Assembly: GCA_018333535.1 (NCBI GenBank)
Contig: JAGXTA010000057.1
Coordinates: 1 to 64,000, forward strand
Direction of reading: 5' to 3'
Length of the DNA stretch: 64,000 nucleotides
Source: Deltaproteobacteria bacterium
Lineage (GTDB): Bacteria; Desulfobacterota; BSN033; UBA1163
Made by a program: the position numbers and the translations under genes. Numbering within the stretch: the first letter of the stretch is position 1; the number at the start of each line of letters is the position of its first letter. Below are positions 3,430 to 4,326 of the stretch, one piece after another. The notes beneath the pieces are model-generated. The model ran no database searches, was not told where the DNA came from, and saw only the letters and a program-made list of their open reading frames with translations.

Positions 3430-3550
3430 CCTTTTTTCATGTAAGTTTTTTCAATTTGCGGCCATAAAAAGTCAATATTTACTCTTGCAGTCATATTTTA
3501 GCTTTAACAAAAACCTTTAAATTCAATAGGTTGAATTAATAATTCTTGAT

Positions 3551-3566
3551 TGGCATTATATTTGCT
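3551..3566 (+). promoter_or_regulatory. sigma-54 (RpoN) promoter
   Basis: TGGCAT, five bases, TTGCT: an exact-spacing match to the -24/-12 consensus TGGCAC-N5-TTGCW, with GG at 3552-3553 and GC at 3564-3565. The predicted start near 3577 is about 25 bases before the riboswitch aptamer, so the leader and the two small Cys-rich genes would be RpoN-dependent. No adjacent enhancer-binding regulator is present. Confidence 0.65.
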
Positions 3567-3600
3567 AAGTATATAGGTAGGGAAAAAAATAAATATTGTC

Positions 3601-3806
3601 GATAAAGCCAAACCACGAGTAATCGTGGGACGTCCGTCCCGATCATGATTGGTCGGGAGGGCCCCCTGTTACAGAGATGGAGCAGGCGGGGAAAGCTACG
3701 GGTCCCAAAAGAAACCGAAAATTGGTTTCTTACCTTTAGCTAAGAGCTAAGGGTAATCTTAAGTGAATTTGCTAATGCAAATTCCTGGGATCGCCGGGTT
3801 GCCGAA
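3601..3806 (+). promoter_or_regulatory. GEMM-I (cyclic di-GMP-I) riboswitch with large insertions
   Basis: Aptamer hallmarks in order: AAACC (3610-3614), a six-pair stem CCACGA/TCGTGG capped by a GUAA GNRA tetraloop (3619-3622), GGGACG (3627-3632), AAAGC (3692-3696), and GCCGGGTTGCCGA (3793-3805). By alignment to the Vc2 numbering from memory, the ligand-contact bases are G20 (3607), A47 (3692) and C92 (3802), which fits c-di-GMP rather than cGAMP. The usual G21-C46 pair is a covarying C21-G46. Two oddities: a 58-base insertion (3633-3690) between positions 45 and 46, able to fold into two hairpins, and an enlarged P2 closed by GGTCCCA/TGGGATC that holds three more perfect or near-perfect hairpins (3709-3731, 3732-3754, 3765-3784). 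The outer P1a stem is weak by eye. Confidence 0.75.
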
Positions 3807-3819
3807 ACATTGGATGTAG

Positions 3820-3863
3820 GGCGGACAGGCCTGTTGAACGTCATGATGGACCTGTTTACCGCC
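3820..3863 (+). promoter_or_regulatory. expression-platform hairpin between aptamer and terminator
   Basis: GGCGG-ACAGG (3820-3829) can pair with CCTGT...CCGCC (3851-3863). The same ACAGG also lies in a 10-base palindrome ACAGGCCTGT (3825-3834), so two mutually exclusive folds are possible just ahead of the terminator. Its role as a switch element is inference. Confidence 0.4.
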
Positions 3864-3882
3864 AGACCGGAAAAATGTTGAG

Positions 3883-3918
3883 GGCCCGTGGCTTCAGAGG
3901 ACACGGGCCTTTTTATTT
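3883..3918 (+). terminator. intrinsic terminator in the riboswitch leader
   Basis: GGCCCGTG (3883-3890) pairs perfectly with CACGGGCC (3902-3909), followed by TTTTTATTT. It sits about 80 bases after the aptamer and about 20 bases before the first downstream start codon, the position expected of a riboswitch-controlled terminator. Confidence 0.85.
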
Positions 3919-3937
3919 AAATTCTGTTTTGGGTAAA

Positions 3938-4141
3938 ATGGTGAAGAGGATGTCAGTTTTTAAAAAATGTTCCTTTTATCGTGAATATGGAAATCCAAAG
4001 GGGAGCAGTTTTAGAGGATATTGCGACCTTGACCACGACTGGATCGTTTGCAGGGGGGATATTCAATCCTGCAAAAAGGTCGACCTGCTGAGAAAATGTT
4101 TGCTCGAGGAGAAGAGGAGAGAGGAAGGCACAGGATGGTAG
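3938..4141 (+). CDS. small Cys-rich protein, copy 1
   Basis: A 67-residue protein of unknown function. Four cysteines follow the pattern C-x(n)-GYCDLD-x5-C-x-GD-x3-C, suggesting a small metal-binding or disulfide fold. The copy immediately downstream has the same pattern. I start it at the ATG at 3938; ATG 3950 is also possible, and the longer reading from 3875 is rejected because it would translate the terminator hairpin. Its stop overlaps the start of copy 2. It is the first gene behind the sigma-54 promoter and c-di-GMP leader, so expression is probably tied to c-di-GMP level. No signal peptide is seen. Confidence 0.65.
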   Translation: MVKRMSVFKKCSFYREYGNPKGSSFRGYCDLDHDWIVCRGDIQSCKKVDLLRKCLLEEKRREEGTGW

Positions 4142-4326
4142 AGGAGAAACTATGTCCCCTTTTCAGAAGACCGGAAGGCCTGGGTATGGGAAAAGGGATC
4201 GGCTATTGCGACATCGATAGCAGCAGCACGATCTGCGAGGGAGATGTGTTGTTTTGCGAAAGGCCTGATGCCCTAAAGAAATATCTCCAGACGAAATTGG
4301 AAGAGATCGAAAAGGAGGAGAAGTAA
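4135..4326 (+). CDS. small Cys-rich protein, copy 2 (paralogue)
   Basis: A 63-residue paralogue of the preceding gene: an early Cys, then GYCDID-x5-C-x-GDV-x2-C in register with copy 1, ending in a charged, helix-like tail (KLEEIEKEEK). The ATG at 4135 overlaps the stop of copy 1 (ATGGTAG), so the two are translationally coupled. I know of no named family for this motif and do not assign a function. An intrinsic terminator follows at 4368. A tandem pair with conserved cysteines argues that both are real despite their size. Confidence 0.65.
   Translation: MVEEKLCPLFRRPEGLGMGKGIGYCDIDSSSTICEGDVLFCERPDALKKYLQTKLEEIEKEEK

Follow-up and report, generated by a model that had tools for sequence, protein, structure and literature searches.

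We consider it very probable that the window (the whole 64 000-nucleotide stretch of DNA analysed here) carries a c-di-GMP-I OFF switch driven from a sigma54 promoter, whose aptamer bears autonomous hairpin modules at peripheral sites; such modules would have been gained, lost and copied, with core and switch left intact. The sequence-based parts of this reading are the core, the promoter motif, the mutually exclusive helices, the distribution of the modules and the covariation. The usual description of a riboswitch aptamer is of a compact element passed on vertically. In the present case an aptamer for a single ligand accepts inserts of 50–110 nt at three places with its core unaltered, one of these places sits a single base from the ligand contact A47, and the architecture varies among congeners at one syntenic locus, which makes that locus a natural deletion series for testing the origin and importance of RNA peripheral domains. 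The aptamer itself appears to be a c-di-GMP-I riboswitch of known kind, and its modular, exchangeable enlargement appears to be new; a literature search, with partial journal coverage, returned no report of such aptamer inserts.

An earlier note on this DNA had proposed a GEMM-I aptamer with two enlarged places, and our analyses bear this out. The core motifs (AAAGCCAAACC, a GTAA-capped stem, GGGACG, GAAAGC and GCCGGGTTGCCGA) are present at the places it had named and follow the c-di-GMP-I order of P1b with a GNRA loop, GGGACG, P2 and a 3' GCCGA. From 3601 to 3805 on the plus strand the aptamer runs through GATAAAGCCAAACCACGAGTAATCGTGGGACG, a 58-nt block (3633–3690), GAAAGCTACGGGTCCC, an 81-nt block (3707–3787) and GGATCGCCGGGTTGCCGA (Table 1). 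Its 5' half recurs, exactly or nearly so, in 16 of the order's 17 genomes analysed (0 when the pattern was reversed as a control), and the same leader is found in relatives. The 58-nt block is a true indel, as 3590–3632 and 3690–3809 are contiguous in other copies: when 3590–3920 was compared by BLAST with 40 relatives, query positions 1–43 and 101 onwards adjoined with exact edges in several copies, G000:C40, G007:C91 and G003:C74 among them, and other copies had the 58-nt block with the P2 hairpins missing. The minimum free energy (MFE) fold reproduces two insert hairpins and three P2 hairpins and is far stabler than shuffled sequence (z = -6.7; 0 of 200 shuffles equally stable), and consensus folds agree, with covariation. 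Indel edges, MFE fold and consensus folds together uphold the boundaries previously given for the insert and for the three P2 hairpins.

Table 1. Features of the switch and of the genes behind it in the window.
Feature	Position	Strand	Basis
sigma54 (-24/-12) promoter TTGGCATTATATTTGCT	3550..3566	+	motif match
Aptamer 5' half (G20 C21 C22 AAACC, GTAA-capped P1b, GGGACG)	3601..3632	+	RF03167 alignment; match in relatives
ins1, 58 nt, two hairpins between positions 45 and 46	3633..3690	+	indel edges; 15 homologous copies, covariation
G46 A47 and P2 5' strand GAAAGCTACGGGTCCC	3691..3706	+	kept in nearly all copies; 3693–3705 doubles as antiterminator strand
ins3, hairpins 3709–3731, 3732–3754 and 3765–3784 in P2 loop; conserved unpaired strand 3755–3764	3707..3787	+	12-sequence alignment
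P2 3' strand with C92, GGATCGCCGGGTTGCCGA	3788..3805	+	RF03167 alignment; kept at orthologous locus
Platform spacer, long hairpin closed by AACATT/AATGTT	3806..3881	+	fold; layout kept in five orthologues
Intrinsic terminator; 5' arm 3882–3894 complementary to 3693–3705	3882..3917	+	complementarity, folds
63-aa Cys-rich protein, first regulated gene	3950..4141	+	synteny; no Pfam match
Second 63-aa Cys-rich paralogue	4135..4326	+	synteny, sequence; start overlaps previous stop

At gathering thresholds Rfam returned nothing at the window aptamer. At a relaxed threshold RF03167 (c-di-GMP-I-GGC) matched 3598–3807 with 27.9 bits (E = 1.7e-4; gathering score 59 bits), so that the outer elements do receive a GEMM score. 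The shortfall is most likely due to the inserts: insert-free relatives score 60–70 bits with this model, over its threshold, among them the copy at the same locus of congener G004 (L052, 69.8 bits), and relatives with P2 hairpins only reach 58–59 bits with RF01051 (threshold 35). By gathering score within clan CL00126 L052 passes and the window fails, and we file the latter as a variant of the class rather than a standard member, because what it lacks in score lies in the inserts and not in the core. That the element is a chance resemblance or another class of RNA, and no c-di-GMP riboswitch at all, could be argued from the sub-threshold score, but is barely conceivable given the score of the same locus without inserts and the recurrence of promoter, terminator and c-di-GMP-related genes. 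Standard covariance thresholds overlook such insert-bearing aptamers.

Positions in the binding site are given in Vc2 numbering. The ligand contacts G20, A47 and C92 and the C21–G46 pair, named previously, are in place when the sequence is set against Vc2. Judged by its letters, this is the binding site of an ordinary c-di-GMP-I aptamer and neither that of the GGC model, which has G at 47 where the window has A, nor that of cGAMP switches (GEMM-Ib), which carry A20 where the window has G. We infer c-di-GMP as the ligand, and hold it at that strength because the pair is C21–G46 and not Vc2's G21–C46, and because the best-scoring model is GGC (G47) against A47 here. The C21–G46 covariation mentioned in the earlier note is present but not special: many insert-free aptamers have it, among Desulfobacterota as well as in bins bearing the label Izimaplasma or Mollicutes, and hence it does not mark inserted copies. 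Its possible value as the mark of a new ligand class is weakened by some 40 insert-free loci in other groups that carry these letters.

We analysed 42 intact copies, from 16 of the 17 genomes of the order that were covered and many of them from metagenome assemblies. In 41 of the 42 a sigma54 motif (≤ 1 mismatch) lies 25–44 nt ahead of the aptamer, against 0.03 expected from shuffles, and in 40 the stretch that best complements the 5' strand of P2 coincides at least in part with the 5' arm of a downstream intrinsic terminator; these two regularities make a transcriptional OFF switch the best reading. In the window the antiterminator would be a 13-bp helix of 3693–3705 with 3882–3894, and in some copies both sides of it have changed with the pairing preserved (L072, CATGGGTCCC/GGGACCCATG; L020, GCCACGGA/TCCGTGGC). 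A transcript started at the sigma54 promoter would, without ligand, pair its P2 5' strand with the terminator 5' arm, which would block the terminator and allow transcription of the two small Cys-rich genes; once c-di-GMP is bound, P2 would be retained in the aptamer, the terminator would form and transcription would stop. When the switch in the window was folded under the constraint of either state, ON and OFF came out about 1.5 kcal/mol apart, with identical module hairpins in both, and the balance among orthologues ranges from -7.2 to +3.4 kcal/mol.

The surroundings of the promoter and terminator showed some further regularities. Of 41 copies, 25 have IHF-like sites WATCAANNNNTTR (≤ 1 mismatch) within 90 nt ahead of the sigma54 promoter (5.5 expected; region 3470–3566 in the window), and GACAAAAAA(N)GTC, a possible site for an enhancer-binding protein, lies further upstream in many copies. 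A second type of platform (L017, L020, L059, L067, L068) has a terminator that starts with AACCGG or GAACCGG and carries in its loop CCGTGGC, or a sequence like it, with complementarity to the aptamer; pilin-like genes follow two of the five.

The two genes behind the switch in the window overlap at ATGGTAG (4135–4141), which suggests translational coupling. They belong to a family of short, Cys-rich proteins (C-x-FYR...GYCDLD...C-x-GD...C) without Pfam match, members of which follow many of the switches; in L050 a member is fused to PilZ, as is one in L065, judging by its sequence. The genes behind sister copies include those for REC-GGDEF, for a PilZ protein whose N-terminus is Cys-rich, for HK-REC and for pilin-like proteins; the linkage to c-di-GMP or surface and motility genes comes through the sister copies.

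The window's two enlargements, ins1 and ins3, are two of three optional modules, which come and go at orthologous loci. The modules occupy fixed sites: ins1 the 45|46 junction, ins2 a place behind CACG within the 5' strand of P2, and ins3 the loop of P2. In our sorting of the sequences, 17 of the 42 copies have none of them, five have ins1, two ins2 (one of which, in G003, also retains a remnant of ins3) and seven ins3, and the remainder combine ins1 with ins2 (five), ins1 with ins3 (five) or ins2 with ins3 (one). There are thus seven combinations, with at most two of the three modules in any copy and aptamers of 70 to 273 nt; L022 carries a strongly diverged ins3 of uncertain homology. Across 395 genomes of the phylum an insert of 46–76 nt at the 45|46 site was found only in the window's family (nine genomes), by a search pattern that fixes several core letters and that more divergent aptamers would escape. 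The same search found a 23-nt hairpin at this site in one other genus (f2 g5), and two other matches were insert-free. This hairpin (L025, L026, L027 near 1535), from another genus of the class, looks unrelated.

The variation is seen most directly at the window's own locus, where the gene order trxB – DUF2782-like – switch – CysA – CysB – NifU-like is common to 11 genomes, the DUF2782-like gene not being found in G010 nor the NifU-like gene in the stretch of G004 examined. Ten intact orthologues here display six architectures: ins1 with ins3 in the window's genome (G000), G002 and G006; ins3 in G007; ins1 in G015; ins2 in G005 and, with a remnant of ins3, in G003; ins2 with ins3 in G009; and no module in G004 and G010. 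The copy in G014 (C37; L074, 2000–2110) is at the trxB locus as well, and has lost its P2 3' strand within the start of ins2; its terminator remains, the switch looks broken, and we did not count it as an architecture. A tree built from the DNA of four genes resolved in part, and on it every module requires at least three changes; the TrxB protein tree did not resolve the branching. Strict inheritance of ins3 locus by locus is unsupported. The ins3 of the paralogue G000:C40 agrees with that of the window at 76 of 81 positions (next-best copy, 70), and the apparent orthologues of C40 (L046, L051, L061) are without ins3; together these observations point to copying of ins3 between loci inside a genome.

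The earlier note had asked whether the extra helices covary, and those of ins1 and ins3 do. Two-sided changes affect 6 of 20 pairs in ins1 (score 0.226 against 0.151 in shuffles, 0 of 500; slid controls ≤ 0.122) and 11 of 31 pairs in ins3 (0.282 against 0.161, 0 of 500; slid controls ≤ 0.074). Kin sequences may beat such shuffles without any structure, and we therefore place the weight on the slid controls and the two-sided changes, which imply that the fold is under selection, even if only to avoid misfolding. In ins2 one of 24 pairs shows a two-sided change and the fold is weakly supported. In L072 and L018, ins2 contains nested extra hairpins (GCCTG...CAGGC), as if inserts themselves receive inserts.

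Origins also differ among the modules. Like dispersed palindromic (REP/MITE-like) repeats, ins2 has ends (CACGCCTGCGTGCC ... GGCGTGCAGGCACG) that match intergenic repeats of the same genomes: its end CACGCCTGCGTGCCGAA was matched 45 times across 10 genomes, mostly away from the aptamers identified here, and those at L168 and L169 read as free-standing palindromic repeats. These matches and the two free-standing palindromes make a dispersed repeat the most likely source of ins2. In contrast, signature sequences of ins1 and ins3, the window's modules, were not found outside aptamers in the 17 genomes, nor by BLAST in two genomes, and we rejected an origin as ordinary mobile repeats for these two and retained it for ins2. 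The repeats bear on a reading to which we grant a real but lesser chance, namely that the inserts, as selfish or neutral palindromic repeats, settled where the aptamer tolerates them and play no role. It draws on the ins2 ends and on a palindrome, CCTGCCTGCCGGTAGGCAGG, present in dozens of places in G000 and G007, which itself or as a close variant has entered the expression platforms of L004, L021, L072 and L073 just after the aptamer, as well as on the ins3 remnants in L049 and L056 and the one aptamer destroyed in its ins2 region (L074). Against it speak ins1 and ins3, which in the 17 genomes were found in aptamers only and whose helices are kept by two-sided changes.

The earlier note had suggested that the added arms could bind a second ligand, a protein or an antisense RNA; in such a reading ins1 and/or ins3 would be second sensors that integrate a further signal with c-di-GMP. 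Besides the covariation of both, this would fit the unpaired strand of ins3 (consensus TCTTNRGTG), kept in most copies, the frequent GNRA loop of ins1 hairpin 2, and the conservation of the modules: identity between orthologues is 94–100% in the core, 87–88% in ins1 and 82–90% in ins3, against 69–80% in the 100 bases upstream of the promoter. However, congeners G004 and G010 keep promoter, platform and genes without modules, 17 of the 42 copies have no module, modules do not track gene type, and they fold alike in the ON and OFF states. Rfam gave no credible family within ins1, ins2 or ins3; this leaves the modules without a match of their own, and we rejected a known RNA family as their identity. 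We regard a second sensing function as possible but unsupported, and second sensors as an unlikely explanation. Rather unlikely too, in our estimate, is a riboswitch family that evolves by whole-module exchange at fixed sites and in which ins1 and ins3 have taken on a function, be it second sensor, protein platform or folding aid, adjusting the response to c-di-GMP at each locus. As the modules fold alike in both predicted states, they appear to be peripheral domains that are tolerated or have been co-opted, and that within the c-di-GMP OFF switch favoured here would tune switching or merely not disturb it.

Compared with known systems, the window shares with RF01051 and Vc2 the P1b with its GNRA loop, P2 and the G20, A47 and C92 contacts, but has C21–G46 for G21–C46, a 58-nt insert between 45 and 46, a three-hairpin P2 loop and a length of about 205 nt against an ordinary 90 or so. 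RF03167 is the best-scoring model for the window and for its insert-free relatives, yet its consensus is GGC...CGCGAAGC (G47) whereas the window has GCC...GGAAAGC (A47). The c-di-GMP-I switch Cd1 of C. difficile is a transcriptional OFF switch in which an aptamer strand and the terminator compete for a switching strand (PMC9262584). We infer the same OFF direction for the window, where the predicted transcriptional logic parallels that of Cd1 (PMC9262584), although in the window it is the 5' strand of P2 that would compete, the promoter belongs to the sigma54 type and the aptamer bears modules.
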